Shown here: positions 51,747-58,118 of the stretch, one piece after another
How positions within the stretch are numbered: position 1 is the first letter of the stretch
Layout: the number at the start of each line of letters is the position of its first letter
From: Synechococcus sp. RedBA-s
GTDB taxonomy: Bacteria; Cyanobacteriota; Cyanobacteriia; PCC-6307; Cyanobiaceae
NCBI RefSeq assembly: GCF_024345495.1
Contig: NZ_JAGQBF010000017.1
Location: 1 to 62,882, forward strand
DNA: 62,882 nucleotides
Reading direction: 5' to 3'
Position numbers and translations under genes: made by a program
Notes under the pieces: model-generated
Told to the model about the DNA's origin: nothing
The model's input: the letters and a program-made list of their open reading frames with translations, nothing else
Database searches by the model: none

Positions 51747-52229
51747 CAGCCGCTCCAGCTCAGCCACCGTGACCTGCACCCCAGGGCGGAGCGGGTCGGA
51801 GAGCGCCAGCAGGCCCAGCATCGCCAGACCGGCTTCATCCGCCCGGCTGATCGCCCGGGGCACCAGGGTCGCCTCGGAATCCCAGCGTCACACCGCCACC
51901 GCCAGCTCCTTGAGGAAGACCCCCTTGGTGATCAGGACCGGGGCGCCGTCGGCACAGGCCAGCACGCTCAGTCGCTTGCGGTTGAAGTCGAAGGGGATCT
52001 CGTCGAGCTTGCGCCAGGCGGAGAGGTCGATCGCACGGGCCGCATCGCGGATCGCCCCATCGATCGGGTTGCTGAACCCCGTCTCGAAGCTGGCGTTCAC
52101 CCCCGCATGCAGCAACACCGCCGGGTTCTCGCCGCCATCGACGCCACAGCTGCGCTGCACCACCGGCACGCTCCAGAAGTCGTCGGGGCTCTGCGGTTCA
52201 CCGCTCCCTGGGCTGTCGATGGGATCCAT
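51747..52229 (-). pseudogene. Remnant of an MgtA-type P-type ATPase
   Basis: The minus-strand frame encodes phrases of the nucleotide-binding domain of Mg2+-type P-ATPases: VNASFETGFSNPIDGAIRD, FDFNRKRLSVLACADGA and APVLITKGVFLKELAV. A TGA at 51888-51890 breaks the frame, and the same frame then reads AISRADEAGLAMLGLLALSD with DPLRPG. The usual roughly 80 residues between ITKG and ADE are absent, as are the N- and C-terminal thirds with the phosphorylated aspartate and membrane helices. So it is an internal relic, not a working pump. Confidence 0.75.
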
Positions 52230-52300: not shown

Positions 52301-52480
52301 ATGGCTCCCACCACCCTGGAACCGCGTCAGCAGGCCCTGGTGCTGTCCCTGCGCCAGCGCATGGCCGCAGCCCGCGCCAACGGCGACGCCCAGACCCACC
52401 AGGCCCTCTTCCGTGAGGCGGTGTATCTGGGCATCCAACCCAGCCTGCTGGAGCCGGAGCAGAACTCGGCCAACACATAA
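52301..52480 (+). CDS. Small conserved hypothetical protein
   Basis: A 59-residue, probably helical protein (LEPRQQALVLSLRQRMAAAR, then AQTHQALFREAVYLGIQP). ATG 52301 is chosen; TTG 52292 is also in frame. No family is recognised. The gene sits between the ATPase remnant and the 3' end of the guanidine-module transporter, on the opposite strand from both. Real but function unknown is my best guess. Confidence 0.5.
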   Translation: MAPTTLEPRQQALVLSLRQRMAAARANGDAQTHQALFREAVYLGIQPSLLEPEQNSANT

Positions 52481-52498
52481 CCCCCGGCCGCGATCCCA

Positions 52499-53266
52499 TC
52501 AACTGGCGGCGGCATCGAGATTGCGCAGAGTGGTGACCAGCTCTTCCCGCAGCTCCAGGAACGGCGGGGACACCCTCAGGTGGGCCAGGTTGGAGCGGTC
52601 GAGATCGGCCTCCACCGTCCGCACGATCCGCCCGGGACGCGGCGCCATGATGTGCACCCGCTGGGCCAGCAGCAGCGCCTCCTCCAGGTCGTGGGTGATC
52701 AAGAGAGCAGTGAGGCCGGAGCGCTGCCAAAGCTGATAGAGGAACTCCTGCATCGATTCGCGGATCTGCAGGTCCAGGGCACCGAAGGGTTCATCCAGCA
52801 GCACCACCTTCGGGTCGGCGGCCAGGGCGCGAGCGATCGCCACCCGCTGCTGCATGCCCCCCGAGAGTTCCTTCGGCAGGCGCCGGGCGGCATCCTGCAG
52901 ACCGACCACCTCCAGGAAGTAGGCGGTGCGCTCGCGCACCAGGGCCCTGGGCAACCCCTGCAGCGACATGCCGAAGGCCACGTTCTGGGCCGCCGTCATC
53001 CAGGGGTAGAGGCTGTATTTCTGGAAGACCATGCCCCGATCGGAGCCGGGCCCGTGCACCGACTTGCCATCGAGGGCAATCACTCCGGCGCTGGGGCGCT
53101 CCAGGCCGGCGATCAGGCGCATCACCGTGGACTTGCCCGAGCCGGAACTGCCCACCAAAGCCACGAATTCGCCGGACTTGATCGAAAAGCTGATGTCGTC
53201 GAGCACCAACTTGGCCTGACGGCCGTCACCGAAGCTCTTGCTGACGCCATTGACGGAGAGATGCAT
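52499..53266 (-). CDS. ABC importer ATPase (SsuB/TauB-like), guanidine module
   Basis: A 255-residue ATPase of the nitrate/sulfonate/taurine importer class. Walker A is VGSSGSGKSTVMRL, the Q-loop YSLYPWMTAA, the signature LSGGMQQRVAIAR and Walker B VVLLDEPFGALD, and the switch histidine is in LLITHDLEEALL. It starts at ATG 53266, one base after the permease stop region. It is the last gene of the importer. A guanidine or related-compound substrate is inferred from its neighbours, not from sequence. Confidence 0.9.
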   Translation of the reverse strand: MHLSVNGVSKSFGDGRQAKLVLDDISFSIKSGEFVALVGSSGSGKSTVMRLIAGLERPSAGVIALDGKSVHGPGSDRGMVFQKYSLYPWMTAAQNVAFGMSLQGLPRALVRERTAYFLEVVGLQDAARRLPKELSGGMQQRVAIARALAADPKVVLLDEPFGALDLQIRESMQEFLYQLWQRSGLTALLITHDLEEALLLAQRVHIMAPRPGRIVRTVEADLDRSNLAHLRVSPPFLELREELVTTLRNLDAAAS

Positions 53267-53267
53267 C

Positions 53268-54038
53268 TCAGCTGGCCCAACGACAACTACGCCGCAGCAC
53301 GGCGCGGAACCCCAGATCGATCAGCAGGCCGATCAGGCCGATCACGATCAACCCCACGAAAATCTCATCGGTGCGCAGAAAGCGCTGGGCTAGGCTGATG
53401 CGCTTGCCCAGGCCTTCGTTGGCGGCCACCAGCTCCGCCACGATCACCAGATTCCAGGCCGAGGCCATGTTGATGCGGTAGGCATCAATCGCCTGCGGGG
53501 CGATGTAGGGGGCCACCACACGGGTGAGGATCGGCAGGCCCCTGCCGCCGAGGGTGAGGGCGGTTTCGAGCAACTCCTGAGGTACGAACTTCACCGCATC
53601 CATGATCATCAACGTGTTGAAGAAGAAGGTGCCGATGAAGATCAGCAGCACCTTCGGCAATTCCCCCAGGCCGAAATAGATGATCAGCAGGGGAATGAAG
53701 GCCGGCGCCGGCATGTAACGGATCAGCCCCAGCAGGGGCTCCAGCAGGCGGCAGATCAACGGGTTGCTGCCCATGGCAATGCCGAGGGGCAGAGCCAGCG
53801 CCGCCGAGAGCGCAAAGCCAAGGAACACCCGCCGGATGCTGGCGATCGCATCAGCCACCAGGATTCCCGCCTGGACCTGCTCGCCCGCCGCCCGCCAGAC
53901 CGCCAGCGGGCTGGGCAGGAACAGGGGGTCCACCACACCGCTGAGACTGATCAGGGACCAGACCAGCAGTACCACCAGGATCCCGAGCGGACCGAGCAAC
54001 CAGGGGGAGCGCAGGGTGGATCGCTCAAAGAACCGCAT
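53268..54038 (-). CDS. ABC importer permease (SsuC/TauC-like), guanidine module
   Basis: A 256-residue inner-membrane permease with about six segments. The BPD-type EAA motif is in ALTLGGRGLPILTRVVAPYI. The helix after RYMPAPAFIPLLIIYFGLGE and the phrase INMASAWNLVIVAELVAANE match the nitrate/sulfonate permease family. ATG 54038 overlaps the binding-protein stop by one base (TGATG). It is followed by the ATPase gene. Confidence 0.9.
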   Translation of the reverse strand: MRFFERSTLRSPWLLGPLGILVVLLVWSLISLSGVVDPLFLPSPLAVWRAAGEQVQAGILVADAIASIRRVFLGFALSAALALPLGIAMGSNPLICRLLEPLLGLIRYMPAPAFIPLLIIYFGLGELPKVLLIFIGTFFFNTLMIMDAVKFVPQELLETALTLGGRGLPILTRVVAPYIAPQAIDAYRINMASAWNLVIVAELVAANEGLGKRISLAQRFLRTDEIFVGLIVIGLIGLLIDLGFRAVLRRSCRWAS

Positions 54039-55141
54039 CAGGGGGCCGCATCGACGAAACGGGCGTCGAAGAGCTTGGTGAGATCCGGCGGTGTCTTGGC
54101 CAACCCCACCTCCTGCAGGAAGGTGCTGATCTCAGCGGCGGCAAAGGGCAGCGAGGCCATGGTGTTGCCGGGCTTGAGTGCCTCACGGTTCTGCTCCAGC
54201 GTGAAGATCGTGGTGCCGGCGTCGTACTCCTTGTAGTCGGCCTCGCTCACTCCAGCCCGAGCCGCCATGATTGTGAGGCTGGAGTCTGGGTTGGCCTTGA
54301 TCTCCTTGAGGGTGGCGAACCAGGCGTTCACCACCTTCTGCAGCTGCTCAGGGTTCTTCTCCACAAACTCCGTGCGGCAGACCAGGTGATCACTGATAGC
54401 GCCGGGGAACTCCTTGGAGGAAATCAGGGTGGTGCTGCCGGGGCGCTTGAGTGCCTGGGTGGTGAAGGGGGCGAACACTCCAACGGCATCCACCTTCTCG
54501 GCTACGAAGGCCGCCGCGGCCGCACCGGTTTCCAGCGGCACGAACTCGATGTCCTTGGCCGTGAGTCCCGCCTTCTTCAGGCCCAGCAGCAGCAGGTAGT
54601 GATCAACGGTGCCCTCCTCAGCAGCCACCTTGCGGCCCTTGAGCTGGGGCACCGCCATGATGCCCTGGGCGGCGATGACCTGGTCGTTTCCGGTGGAGTT
54701 GTCGTTAGTGAGCACCACCCGCAGATCGGCGCCACCGGCGATGGAGCTGATCGTGTCGTTGAGGGTCTGGCTGTTGCAATCCAGCTGGCCGGCGTTGAGG
54801 GCGTTGATGGAATCGAGGTAGCCATCAAACCACTGCAGGGTCACCGGGACCCCCGCCGCTTTGAACAGGCCCTTCTCCTCGGTGACCTTCCAGGGAATCC
54901 AACCGGGCCAGGCGCTGTAGCCAATTCGCACCGGCGCGCTCCCCGTCTGCGGCGGGCTCTGGCAGCTGGCCAGCAGGCCTGTGCCCATCAGCGCCAGCAG
55001 GCCGCATCCCACCAACCGTTGGCGCCGACGTGGTTGCCGCGAGCGCTGATGGCTGATGGCCCGAGCAGCGCCTGAGCTAGTGAGTTTGGAGCCGGTGAGG
55101 GTTGAGCTGGAGCTGGGATCAGGACACTGACTGGAGGTCAT
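54038..55141 (-). CDS. ABC importer substrate-binding lipoprotein (SsuA/TauA-like), guanidine module
   Basis: A 367-residue NMT1/THI5-type binding protein. After a Ser/Arg-rich leader of 40 residues there is a lipoprotein signal with lipobox LLASC (lipid-linked C60). The domain starts IGYSAWPGWIPWKVTEEKG, followed by LNAGQLDCNSQTLND and AAQGIMAVPQLKG. The N-terminal region before the signal is unusually long, and ATG 55141 is the only start seen. It probably captures guanidine or a guanidino-compound for the module. It lies 70 bases downstream of the glutamine synthetase relic. Confidence 0.85.
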   Translation of the reverse strand: MTSSQCPDPSSSSTLTGSKLTSSGAARAISHQRSRQPRRRQRLVGCGLLALMGTGLLASCQSPPQTGSAPVRIGYSAWPGWIPWKVTEEKGLFKAAGVPVTLQWFDGYLDSINALNAGQLDCNSQTLNDTISSIAGGADLRVVLTNDNSTGNDQVIAAQGIMAVPQLKGRKVAAEEGTVDHYLLLLGLKKAGLTAKDIEFVPLETGAAAAAFVAEKVDAVGVFAPFTTQALKRPGSTTLISSKEFPGAISDHLVCRTEFVEKNPEQLQKVVNAWFATLKEIKANPDSSLTIMAARAGVSEADYKEYDAGTTIFTLEQNREALKPGNTMASLPFAAAEISTFLQEVGLAKTPPDLTKLFDARFVDAAP

Positions 55142-55210
55142 TGGTAGAGCGCCAAAGTAAAGACAAAAAATCAGGATTTGGAGGAAAACGAAGGTGCGCC
55201 ATTGGCGGCT

Positions 55211-55464
55211 CTAGAGGAACTCGAGATAACGAGAGCGCTCCTACACCGACACCTGGCCGTGATAGTCGGCCCATTCCGCTCGTTTGTAGTCGATGAACGC
55301 GGTAGCCATGGCATCACCGAACACCGTGCGCGACAATGGATCGACAGCGAAGGCCTCAATCGCCTCGCCAAGGGTCCGTGGCAACACCTTCAGGCCCAGC
55401 TCGGTCCGCTGCTCGGCGCTGAGCCGGAGGCATTGACGAGATTGGGATCGCCGGGATCCAGCTC
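55211..55464 (-). pseudogene. C-terminal remnant of a glutamine synthetase (GlnT-like)
   Basis: The minus strand encodes [10 protein letters not shown] in the hypB frame, then after a one-base frameshift [20 protein letters not shown] and EAIEAFAVDPLSRTVFGDAM, FIDYKRAEWADYHGQVSV. A TAG at 55241-55243 stands where the family has Trp. The frame then continues with ERSRYLEFL to a final stop at 55211-55213. This is the C-terminal end of a GlnT-like glutamine synthetase; the catalytic N-terminal part is missing. A nitrogen-assimilation gene was probably lost from the guanidine operon. Confidence 0.75.
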
Positions 55465-56148
55465 CGCCCGGCACCTGTGCGCCCGGGTGGCGGCCAGCAA
55501 CCACTGGTGCCAGGCTTCGAGCCCGGCGCCGGAGCTAGCCGAGAGCTGAAACACCTCCGCCTCAGGATTGACGGCATGGATGTGCGCCTCGATGCGGCTC
55601 ACGTCGATGGAGAGGTAAGGGAGCAGATCCACCTTGGTGATCAGCACGCAATCAGCTTCCCGGAACATCACCGGATACTTGAGTGGCTTGTCCTCGCCTT
55701 CGGTGACACTGAGCAGGGCCACCTTGAGGTGCTCGCCCACCTCGAATTCAGCCGGGCAGACCAGGTTGCCCACGTTCTCCACCCAGAGCAGATCGAGATC
55801 GGCTGGGTTGAGCCGCGCCTGCAGTTGACGCAGGCCACCGCTCACCATCGCCGCATCCAGGTGGCAGGCGCGGCCGGTGGTGATCGGCACCACCGGCACC
55901 CCCACTGCTTCGAGGCGCTGGGCGTCGAGCTGGGTGGTCATGTCGCCCTCCAGCACCGCCATCTCCAGTTGTGGCGCCAACGCGGTGATCGTGCGCTCCA
56001 GCAGGGAGGTCTTGCCAGCGCCGGGGCTGCTCATCACATTGAGACAGAGCAGGTTCCAGGCCTCAAAGTGCTCACGGTTGTGCTCCGCCTGGTGCTGATT
56101 GGCGGCCAGCAGGTTGAGGCCGAGGGTGTCGCTGAGGGGCATGTGCAT
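55390..56148 (-). CDS. hypB: HypB-type nickel-insertion GTPase, fused at its 3' end to a GS relic
   Basis: A 252-residue SIMIBI GTPase delivering nickel, here likely to the guanidine hydrolase. The P-loop is in [17 protein letters not shown]. Other landmarks are [18 protein letters not shown], the metal-site motif [30 protein letters not shown] and the NKxD-type [11 protein letters not shown]. The N-terminal nickel-binding CxxC of E. coli HypB is absent. The normal end should be near [13 protein letters not shown]; the last 30 residues come from the glutamine synthetase remnant. ATG 56148 is 4 bases after hypA. Confidence 0.9.
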
Positions 56149-56152
56149 GGGA

Positions 56153-56545
56153 TCAGCGCGGGGGAACGGCGGCGGGTTGTGAGGTCTGGTGCGGCAGGCT
56201 GTAATCGACGGAGCGAATGCGCAGCTCACGGCCGCTCACGATCTCCTCCATGGGCCGATCGCAGCAGGGAGAGCGGTAGGCGCGCTCAGGGTCTGGGTGG
56301 TAGGCGCTGGAGCAGGCCAGGCAGCGGGCCCTGAGGGGAACGGACTCGATCTCGAGCGTTGAGCCATCGAGCCAGCTGCCCTGGACGGCGGCGGCGAAAG
56401 TGAAGCGCAGCGCCTCGGGCTCCACGCAGGTGAACTCACCCACCTGCAGATGCACGGCTGTCACCACGGGGGTCTGGGGCTCCTGCCCCCGCTTCCACTC
56501 CTGCAGGGAGAGCAGCAGGCATTTGGTCATGTCGACCTCATGCAT
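56153..56545 (-). CDS. hypA: HypA-type nickel metallochaperone
   Basis: A 130-residue nickel chaperone. The N-terminal [14 protein letters not shown] carries the nickel-binding His2 next to Met1. The zinc site is formed by [13 protein letters not shown] and [20 protein letters not shown], with two cysteine pairs. ATG 56545 lies 3 bases after the guanidine hydrolase stop and precedes hypB. It is apparently dedicated to the hydrolase rather than to hydrogenase, since no hydrogenase gene is seen here. Confidence 0.93.
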
Positions 56546-56548
56546 GAC

Positions 56549-57754
56549 CTATCTCCACTTCTGATCGACGGCCATGTTGCAGGCGTCGTGCAACCAGGCG
56601 GGCTTCTGCTTGCGGGGCAACTGGCCACTCACCACCAGGTGGGCCATCACATCGCAGATCACGCGGGTGGCCATCAGTGAGGTCATGTCGCTGATGTCGT
56701 AGGGGGGCGACACCTCCACCACCTCCAGGCCGCAGACCGGCACGTTGCGCACGATCAGCTCCAGCAACTTGAGCGCCTCGCGCGGCAGCAGCCCACCGGG
56801 TTCGGGCCAGCCGGTGCCGGGCACGAAGCCGGCGTCGATGCAGTCGATGTCGAAGGAGATGTACACACAATCAGTGCCATCGGTGGCGCGCTCAATCGCG
56901 AACCTGGCGGCCGCCTCGAGGCCCATGTCGCAGATGTCGGTGACGGTGAGCACGTTGGTGCCCCGTTCGCGGCAGACCTTCACCCCCTCCCGCGGCACCT
57001 GCCAGCCACCGATGCCCAGCTGCACCAGATTTTCGGCCGGCGCGTTGGCCATGTTGGTGGCATGGAACCAGGGGCAGGTGTGCATGCGCTCGTCGAGGTC
57101 GATCTCCTGGGTATCGACATGGCGATCGAAGTGGATGATGCCCACCTTCTTGTCGCCCAGGTGACGGCAGACGCCACGCACGGTGGGGAAGCCGATCGAA
57201 TGGTCGCCGCCAAGAATGATCGGGAACGCTCCACTGGCGAACACGTGCGCAACGCCCTTGGAGATCTGATCGAAGCTCTTCTCGTTGTTGGCGGGAATCG
57301 TGAAGATGTCGCCCACATCACAGAGCCGAATCGACTCGCGCAGGTCGACGCCCATCTCGTAGTTGTAGGGCGTGTAGAGCGCTGAAATGCGGCGGATGCC
57401 CTGGGGGCCGAAGCGGGTGCCGGGCCGGTAGGTGGTGCCGGAATCGTGGGGCACTCCCAGGATCGCCACATCGAACTCGCCGACGCGATTCACGTCCTCG
57501 ATGTAGGGCGCCTTCATGAAGGTGTTGATGCCCGCGTAGTGGGGCAACTCGCCGCGCGAGAAGGTGGAGATGCGCCGATCGACGATGCTCTCGGCGGCTT
57601 CAAGGCCAAAGCGCAGGCCCTGCTCCACCTCCTGCTGCCAGCCGGTGAGCGGCAGGCGGGCCTCCTTCTCGAGGGCCTCAGCGCCCTGGCGGCCAGCGGG
57701 CGGCGCCTGGGTACGACGGTCGAAGGCCCCTTCTGGGCCTGAAGATGCGGTCAT
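56549..57754 (-). CDS. gdmH: Guanidine hydrolase-type ureohydrolase (nickel-dependent)
   Basis: A 401-residue ureohydrolase, expected to convert guanidine to urea and ammonia. Metal ligands are H185, D210, H212, D214, D302 and D304 (GGDHSIGFP, HFDRHVDTQE, SFDIDCIDAG). The FDRHVD variant (usually DAH), GTGWPEPGG (usually GTGTPEPGG) and the long N-terminal region resemble the Synechocystis Sll1077 guanidine hydrolase group, as recalled. ATG 57754 lies 26 bases after the riboswitch. The module order riboswitch, hydrolase, hypA, hypB, importer strongly supports this over agmatinase. Confidence 0.93.
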   Translation of the reverse strand: MTASSGPEGAFDRRTQAPPAGRQGAEALEKEARLPLTGWQQEVEQGLRFGLEAAESIVDRRISTFSRGELPHYAGINTFMKAPYIEDVNRVGEFDVAILGVPHDSGTTYRPGTRFGPQGIRRISALYTPYNYEMGVDLRESIRLCDVGDIFTIPANNEKSFDQISKGVAHVFASGAFPIILGGDHSIGFPTVRGVCRHLGDKKVGIIHFDRHVDTQEIDLDERMHTCPWFHATNMANAPAENLVQLGIGGWQVPREGVKVCRERGTNVLTVTDICDMGLEAAARFAIERATDGTDCVYISFDIDCIDAGFVPGTGWPEPGGLLPREALKLLELIVRNVPVCGLEVVEVSPPYDISDMTSLMATRVICDVMAHLVVSGQLPRKQKPAWLHDACNMAVDQKWR

Positions 57755-57780
57755 GGCACAACACGGAGGTGGGGTTGCGG

Positions 57781-57905
57781 TCTCCCGGGCTTTTATCCCT
57801 CCGTGCAACCGGGTGACCCCGGTGAGCTTCTCTCGGACCAGACGCTGATTCCAGCTCGCCGAAGCGAACTGGCGTCAGCCGGAACCCTAGAAGCTGCTTC
57901 CGCAA
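57781..57905 (-). promoter_or_regulatory. Guanidine-I (ykkC class) riboswitch
   Basis: On the minus strand three conserved blocks of the ykkC aptamer appear in the right order: CTAGGGTTCC (57890 to 57881), CTGGTCCGAGAG (57841 to 57830) and GGGATAAAAGCCCGGGAGA (57799 to 57781), with an ACGG just before the last. It sits 26 bases before gdmH. The gene context points to the guanidine-sensing subtype rather than ppGpp or PRPP subtypes. Control is likely at translation or by an alternative helix with 57762-57769, since no T-run terminator is seen. Confidence 0.93.
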
Positions 57906-57937
57906 CTGAACTTTCACCCCATCACAGCGATGGAGTT

Positions 57938-57951
57938 GTGATGGTTGCTAC
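57938..57951 (-). promoter_or_regulatory. Weak NtcA-like site upstream of the riboswitch
   Basis: The minus strand reads GTA, 8 bases, CAC (consensus GTAN8TAC; 5 of 6 match). A poor -10 (GAAAGT) lies 22 bases downstream and would place transcription start near 57903, at the aptamer 5' end. The fit is suggestive only. Confidence 0.25.
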
Positions 57952-58118
57952 CAGAGAGTGAATCCCAGGTCTGGATCGGTTGACTGGAAGGGAGCACACA
58001 CGAGCACAGATACATCACGAAATACTCTTGAAACCCGGAACGATTTCAAGAAAGACTGCACCCGAACCAGAAGATCTAGCCTGACTGGCCCAAACACTGT
58101 GCCCTGGGAGCAACAACC

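Follow-up and report, generated by a model that had tools for sequence, protein, structure and literature searches.

An abridged guanidine riboswitch operon in Synechococcus sp. RedBA-s with a predicted import-and-hydrolysis core and without its relatives' ligase and Rieske oxygenase genes

What does a picocyanobacterium do with a minus-strand operon that opens with a ykkC-class aptamer and a ureohydrolase gene, and is that operon complete? We addressed this question for Synechococcus sp. RedBA-s, in a stretch of 62,882 nucleotides (contig NZ_JAGQBF010000017.1; hereafter, the window) that belongs to a draft genome of 61 contigs with 97% completeness. Very probably, the locus is an abridged form of the known cyanobacterial guanidine-utilisation operon, providing import, riboswitch induction, nickel loading and hydrolysis, from which genes for a ligase (here LigA) and a Rieske oxygenase have been lost. 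At the level of sequence, the aptamer class, the identity of the hydrolase GdmH, its chaperones, the architecture of the importer, a urease domain and two deletions are established. In the mechanism we propose, guanidine would enter the cell through the ABC importer and bind the Guanidine-I aptamer; HypA and HypB would load nickel into GdmH, which would split guanidine into urea and ammonium, and urease would complete the breakdown of urea. The ligase and oxygenase genes appear to have been lost by separate deletions that left this import-plus-hydrolysis core in place.

The aptamer, which the original prediction had assigned to the ykkC class, indeed scores well over the gathering threshold of the Guanidine-I model RF00442. 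A permissive scan of positions 57650-58000 (E ≤ 10) gave no match to other ykkC types, including the PRPP/ppGpp type, and returned istR (16.9 bits) as its only other match. Genome-wide, this aptamer is the sole Guanidine-I match, and the riboswitch is present in nine of nine genomes of the genus, the window's genome counted. The assignment to RF00442 predicts guanidine binding and control of the genes that follow. As for how control might be exerted, aptamer bases 57798-57806 are predicted to pair, in the ligand-free fold, with 57761-57769, shortly ahead of the gdmH start at 57754 (z of −3.4 versus shuffles for the fold of 57740-57905). Guanidine binding would break this anti-aptamer hairpin beside the start codon, freeing the start region and switching the operon on. 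Since no U-tract was seen after the hairpin, regulation at translation is more likely than at termination; both the direction and the mode of regulation suggested here are borrowed from characterised relatives.

Outside this genus, the riboswitch does not always accompany the operon. None of five Prochlorococcus gdmH loci scanned contained a Guanidine-I match at gathering level, one upstream region tested gave none even at E ≤ 1, and RCC307 showed a match of only 24 bits. Prochlorococcus seems to have lost or replaced the riboswitch and kept the operon.

The hydrolase is 85% identical to the Synechocystis guanidinase Sll1077 (7esr/7oi1; 325 of 382 aligned residues) and shares 244 of 364 residues with the Nitrospira inopinata enzyme. 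Its bit scores to solved guanidinases in the PDB are 772 and 585 (9fek), compared with 169 for the best other ureohydrolase. According to passages of PMC11410670, guanidine catalysis by the N. inopinata enzyme may involve Thr105, His222, Trp313 and Glu344; GdmH has all four, assuming a uniform two-residue shift in chain numbering. Judged by these PDB scores, which stand in for a tree, the protein sides with guanidinases and not with agmatinases or arginases, in line with the Ni-type guanidine hydrolase that had been predicted. By analogy with these enzymes, GdmH presumably acts on guanidine and depends on nickel. Matches to gdmH (E ≤ 1e-100) occur in 93 genomes of a 250-genome sample of the order, including genomes of 1.5-1.7 Mb.

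The two genes behind gdmH pass the HypA and HypB family models, with the short gaps expected from the original prediction (3 bp between gdmH and hypA, 4 bp between hypA and hypB). Another contig carries a hydrogenase large-subunit match, weak but above cutoff; because this hydrogenase-like gene has its own CobW/HypB/UreG-family gene nearby, the hypA and hypB of the operon appear to be a dedicated pair. The genome also encodes a urease alpha domain (193.7 bits). Together, aptamer class, GdmH scores and residues, and urease domain support the predicted conversion of guanidine to urea and ammonia.

All three genes of the proposed lipoprotein-permease-ATPase importer were confirmed on the minus strand, and a lipobox, LLASC, was spotted by eye in the substrate-binding protein. 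By sequence, this is an SsuA/Tau-type transporter; the closest NCBIfam models of the ATPase are SaoA and those of the taurine and nitrate type, all under cutoff. The operon context suggests guanidine as its substrate. The importer had been singled out as unusual for a picocyanobacterium, and this we reject. A search with the hydrolase found 380 relatives, and locus counts rest on the best 80 of these. In 67 named loci the downstream sequence is 5.2 kb or longer, and 66 of them match hypA, hypB and the complete importer (presence counted, not order); the exception, L050, is without the substrate-binding protein. Passages of PMC10119275 moreover describe the cluster, transporter included, for Synechococcus, Cyanobium and Prochlorococcus.

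We then asked what the operon lacks. The 248 bp between hypB and the gene of the substrate-binding protein, on which the original prediction was silent, hold the C-terminal stump of a gamma-glutamyl ligase akin to GmaS and type III glutamine synthetases. Aligned with three relatives (L002-L004), the window proves to have lost 1,148 bp at a shared GAGCTGG. Beyond this point hypB runs on into what is left of the ligase frame, and its last ~21 codons stem from the ligase gene. The remnant carries further lesions, namely a 1-bp deletion and a TGG-to-TAG change that leaves one in-frame TAG. A full ligase gene occupies this place in many relatives, in most of them starting at the hypB stop. Among 39 named loci matching the ligase fragment, 37 have a long open frame, one a broken copy (L026) and one a stump (L064); in 34 of 72 loci that match both hypB and the substrate-binding protein, the interval is too short for the gene. 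Ligase matches of >600 bits were found in 43 of the 250 genomes of the order, a set that includes six of the seven other sampled genomes of the genus. In 42 of these 43 picocyanobacterial genomes the gene immediately follows gdmH, with both on one strand; the 43rd (G147) has a partial copy at a contig end and gdmH on a different contig. With a dN/dS of 0.08-0.22 among five relatives that have it, the ligase is under purifying selection.

The seventh genome of the genus, G008, has a broken ligase too, damaged unlike that of the window in that its middle third is missing (L131, 4535-8044), and no oxygenase match. Its importer half resembles the type seen in L006 and L008, which also shows no oxygenase, making recombination within the operon likely; we do not claim an independent double loss.

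The second loss, likewise a point absent from the original prediction, lies at the other end of the importer. In relatives, a Rieske oxygenase gene (PF00355 and PF00848) begins where the ATPase gene ends. The window matches L004 up to 52490 and resumes from 52497, leaving out ~1.95 kb with the oxygenase gene; matches to L002, L003, L005 and L007 also resume, at 52452-52471. The oxygenase has no match in the window and none in the draft genome, the latter in a search without its own positive control; the query does match relatives. An open frame farther on (51888-52229, minus strand) resembles a fragment of a P-type cation ATPase. The closest solved relative of the oxygenase is carnitine monooxygenase, at only 62 bits, and the protein is far under any named NCBIfam cutoff. 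In 66 named loci the sequence continues for 1.2 kb or more past the ATPase gene. Both genes occur in 29 of them, the ligase without the oxygenase in 5, the oxygenase without the ligase in 24, and neither gene in 8. Given these 24 loci, we reject the idea that the oxygenase strictly requires the ligase.

Table 1. Coordinates of the operon features in the window, and of riboswitch scans in other loci.
Feature	Position	Strand	Evidence
Window leader, including the segment CCUCCGUG	57960-57735		
Guanidine-I riboswitch aptamer	57780..57901	(-)	RF00442, 83.1 bits, gathering score 63
Candidate expression platform, 9-bp anti-aptamer hairpin	57761..57806	(-)	minimum-free-energy fold
gdmH, Ni-dependent guanidine hydrolase (predicted), 401 aa	56549..57754, ATG at 57754	(-)	match to Sll1077
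hypA, nickel chaperone, 130 aa	56153..56545	(-)	PF01155 91.5 bits; TIGR00100 88.9 over cutoff 88.1
hypB, nickel-insertion GTPase, 252 aa	55390..56148	(-)	TIGR00073 283 bits
3′ remnant of GmaS-like gamma-glutamyl ligase gene	55241..55457	(-)	Gln-synt_C 1.5e-8; TIGR03105 1.8e-11
ABC substrate-binding protein, Sll1080-like position	54038..55141	(-)	SsuA_fam TIGR01728 216.9 bits, NMT1
ABC permease	53268..54038	(-)	PF00528 79.5 bits
ABC ATPase	52499..53266	(-)	PF00005 119.5 bits
Oxygenase deletion junction, ~1.95 kb missing	52490..52497	(-)	blastn of L004 tail
Prochlorococcus/RCC307 riboswitch scans	L065 7500-8060; L053 7876-7976; L067, L070, L074, L081		

What the lost ligase did can be approached through its intact copies. 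Reading these with the residue roles given for GmaS in passages of PMC7948447, we found Lys30, Tyr147, Asp177, Glu179, Glu186, Trp300 and Arg312 kept in all 50 operon-ligase rows (38 from named and 12 from other genomes, among which there may be near-copies). The ammonium-binding Asp50′ is replaced by Thr and the Glu-flap Glu by Trp, both acidic residues being missing in 50 of 50 rows. The amine pocket is altered as well: all 50 rows carry Q175S and N188D. Gln175 and Asn188 are kept in 19 of 19 other GmaS-type rows, and three distant glutamine-synthetase-family rows (L090, L092 and L145) have neither pocket combination. The operon ligases form one clade, with weak support (79/67) in a first tree of 40 rows, which samples 18 of the 50 operon-ligase rows and includes these three long branches, and 100/100 in a second tree of 33 rows, which samples 14 of the 50 and omits the three; both trees represent the PDB proteins by sequence fragments.

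A phylum sample of 386 genomes contained one ligase match of >600 bits outside the family, in genome G411. Its order yielded 35 ligase hits of at least 700 bits in 63 genomes, and we inspected the surroundings of 22. All 22 keep the catalytic Asp177, Glu186 and Arg312, lack the ammonium-binding Asp and the Glu-flap Glu, and carry Q175S and N188D. Five loci read gdmH-hypA-ligase-hypB-importer, without an oxygenase match. Nine others read ligase-importer-Rieske oxygenase without gdmH, with a Guanidine-I riboswitch directly upstream in every case. In all nine of these genomes gdmH lies elsewhere; the four gdmH regions we fetched contained riboswitch, gdmH, hypA and hypB, and no importer, ligase or oxygenase match within 12 kb. 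The location of gdmH elsewhere in all nine genomes leads us to discard the notion that hydrolase and oxygenase are alternative occupants of a single site. In seven further loci the ligase is divergent from a canonical GmaS gene, and the four of these that were scanned showed no Guanidine-I riboswitch at gathering level; in L177, the one locus of the seven whose neighbours were identified, a GATase gene is present, and genes for alcohol and aldehyde dehydrogenases lie on the far side of GmaS. Locus L178 (5427-9107), without a Guanidine-I match, carries another kind of Rieske oxygenase gene, followed directly by a same-subfamily ligase and a permease. As a separate observation, all five riboswitch-gdmH-hypA-hypB regions scanned (L188, L189, L190, L191 and L198) have the nitrogen-stress sRNA NsiR1 (RF02399) ~1 kb upstream.

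Because all nine ligase-importer-oxygenase loci stand behind a riboswitch and have gdmH elsewhere, this set of genes is a unit tied to the guanidine signal in its own right, apart from the hydrolase, which suggests that the guanidine response has another arm, so far unrecognised. The idea extends our best explanation and competes with hydrolysis as the whole story; we regard it as tentative. In it, importer, ligase with a remodelled, more acidic pocket and Rieske oxygenase might form a riboswitch-controlled route for guanidine or substituted guanidines. The ligase would gamma-glutamylate such a compound, delivered by the same importer, and the oxygenase would oxidise or N-dealkylate it, making the hydrolase one of two outlets; synthesis of gamma-glutamyl-guanidine, or N-demethylation of methylguanidine, are conceivable, if speculative, examples. 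The arm would perhaps be free-standing in one order and merged with the hydrolase operon in many picocyanobacteria, with the window's genome as a natural double deletion. Besides the riboswitches and the gdmH regions devoid of these genes, the position of the ligase directly behind gdmH in picocyanobacteria and its uniformly altered pocket argue for this proposal, as does the precedent of a glutamine synthetase (GS)-like ligase with a Rieske dioxygenase acting on aniline and 1-naphthylamine (passages of PMC11335346). Against it stand the separability of the two genes in the 66 loci, the five gdmH-linked ligase operons without an oxygenase match, and the ligases that sit beside a canonical GmaS gene, with no riboswitch found in the four of these seven loci scanned. 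In addition, the ligase is missing from Prochlorococcus loci that do carry the oxygenase, which therefore cannot always need a glutamylated substrate. For the lost pair we favour, by analogy, glutamate ligation to a guanidine-type amine as putative substrate, followed by Rieske oxidation. With the Prochlorococcus oxygenase apparently able to work on substrates that are not glutamylated, we consider oxidative N-dealkylation of substituted guanidines just as plausible.

A less probable reading takes the ligase for a gamma-glutamylmethylamide synthetase (GmaS) that captures the methylamine left when methylguanidine is hydrolysed. Its best PDB matches, glutamate-methylamine ligase 9qur (398 bits) and Rhodovulum GmaS 7cql (339 bits), point this way, as do the conserved catalytic residues and the absent ammonium-binding Asp and Glu-flap Glu. 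However, the two methylamine-pocket residues are substituted in every operon ligase examined and unchanged in all 19 GmaS-type rows and in all seven canonical neighbours in the order of G411. Nor do operon loci offer the usual company: a tblastn search with six N-methylglutamate synthase proteins against 188 records (loci up to L187 plus the window) found no match in any guanidine-operon locus. Matches did lie beside the plasmid copies L142, L144, L146 and L147 and the canonical copy in G520 (L135, L141), and canonical GmaS copies adjoin such genes on four of six plasmids inspected. A separate canonical GmaS-type gene exists, moreover, also on another contig of the window's genome. Finally, passages of PMC11410670 report that a comammox guanidinase released no urea from methylguanidine, said there to agree with the cyanobacterial enzyme (the results print methylguanine, the methods methylguanidine). 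The methylguanidine-to-methylamine route is thus weakened by literature, pocket changes and the N-methylglutamate synthase search.

With regard to the canonical paralogue itself, it lies in the window's genome on contig C1 (162158-163369; neighbours in L127, 7150-10515), accompanied there and in two other genomes (L126, L132) by an alpha/beta hydrolase gene and a fatty-acid-desaturase-like gene. In 23 of the 43 picocyanobacteria, the canonical paralogue is found on the same contig as the operon ligase, at most ~10 kb away.

It is also rather improbable that the ligase was an ordinary ammonia-assimilating glutamine synthetase trapping guanidine-derived ammonium. It does pass the NCBIfam type III glutamate-ammonia ligase model TIGR03105 (558 over 469.6 bits), but the proven GmaS 7cql carries the same type III name, Thr and Trp stand in place of the ammonium-binding Asp50′ and the Glu-flap glutamate, and a further glutamine synthetase gene with a high score is present on contig C5 of the genome. 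That the whole module is decaying and functionless, as two gene losses in one operon and the chimeric HypB tail could indicate, is very unlikely given open gdmH, hypA, hypB and importer genes, a dN/dS of 0.02-0.06 when the window's gdmH and hypB are compared with those of two relatives, and an intact aptamer.

Several observations weigh against our preferred explanation, an abridged guanidine-utilisation operon. The generic NCBIfam agmatinase model TIGR01230 passes for GdmH, narrowly (178 versus a cutoff of 174.3 bits), so automatic annotation may name the protein an agmatinase. The substrate-binding protein passes an aliphatic-sulfonate family model (216.9 over 163.5 bits), and according to passages of PMC12508155 no studies have addressed potential guanidine importers. 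The proposed expression platform is weakly conserved beyond the nearest relatives: they keep the downstream complement of the hairpin, which is weaker or absent elsewhere. The draft-genome search for the oxygenase had no positive control in the same run. Finally, a draft assembly allows for an assembly error at a deletion junction; the additional lesions in the ligase remnant argue against this at the ligase junction.

The hydrolysis operon itself is already known, and the Rieske oxygenase has been noted by others. What appears new is a distinct ligase subfamily in the guanidine operon of many relatives, and its pairing with the oxygenase in a separate riboswitch operon elsewhere; in the titles, abstract openings and passages of the literature consulted, which are not proof of absence, we recognised no description of a ligase in guanidine operons. 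If the pair indeed acts on guanidine-type compounds, free guanidine would be just one of the compounds taken up by these abundant phototrophs, and the riboswitch would indicate which substrates matter for ligase and oxygenase. The window's genome, with both genes deleted and the core intact, offers a natural control strain for comparison with close relatives such as Synechococcus sp. WH 5701 or CS-1329.

Among known systems, the Synechocystis sp. PCC 6803 operon sll1077-1082, for which operon and guanidinase function are published (passages of PMC8390497; for homologous-operon function also PMC12186494), shares with the window the riboswitch class, the hydrolase (85%), the HypA and HypB homologues and the importer. 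The window differs in its chimeric HypB tail and the ligase stump between hypB and importer, and its relatives add a ligase and a Rieske oxygenase. Closer still is the picocyanobacterial speB2 cluster (Pro-eCAG_004 / Syn-eCAG_001), the same cluster in the same group, described with riboswitch and transporter in marine picocyanobacteria in passages of PMC10119275. There, a downstream Rieske protein is reported for most Synechococcus and Cyanobium genomes with the cluster, unlike the window, which is without the Rieske gene; the term glutamine synthetase occurs nowhere in the main text of that paper.

For the lost ligase, the closest comparison is GmaS (passages of PMC7948447), with which it shares the sequence family, Asp177, Glu186, Arg312 and the Trp300 that replaces the Glu-flap Glu, and from which it differs by Q175S, N188D and a place in guanidine operons instead of an N-methylglutamate synthase neighbourhood. 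The aniline and 1-naphthylamine dioxygenase systems (PMC11335346, in passages) likewise encode a GS-like amine ligase with a Rieske oxygenase. In cyanobacteria, by contrast, a guanidine riboswitch lies upstream and aromatic substrates are without support; no reductase or small subunit was recognised among the open frames viewed in L175 and L184, where no systematic search was made. Similarly, the methylguanidine operon mgdH/mgdL of Vreelandella (passages of PMC12508155) combines an extra oxygenase with a guanidine riboswitch and an ABC importer. Vreelandella, however, uses a 2-oxoglutarate dioxygenase and a carboxylase pathway, whereas the cyanobacteria considered here have a Rieske oxygenase and a hydrolase pathway.

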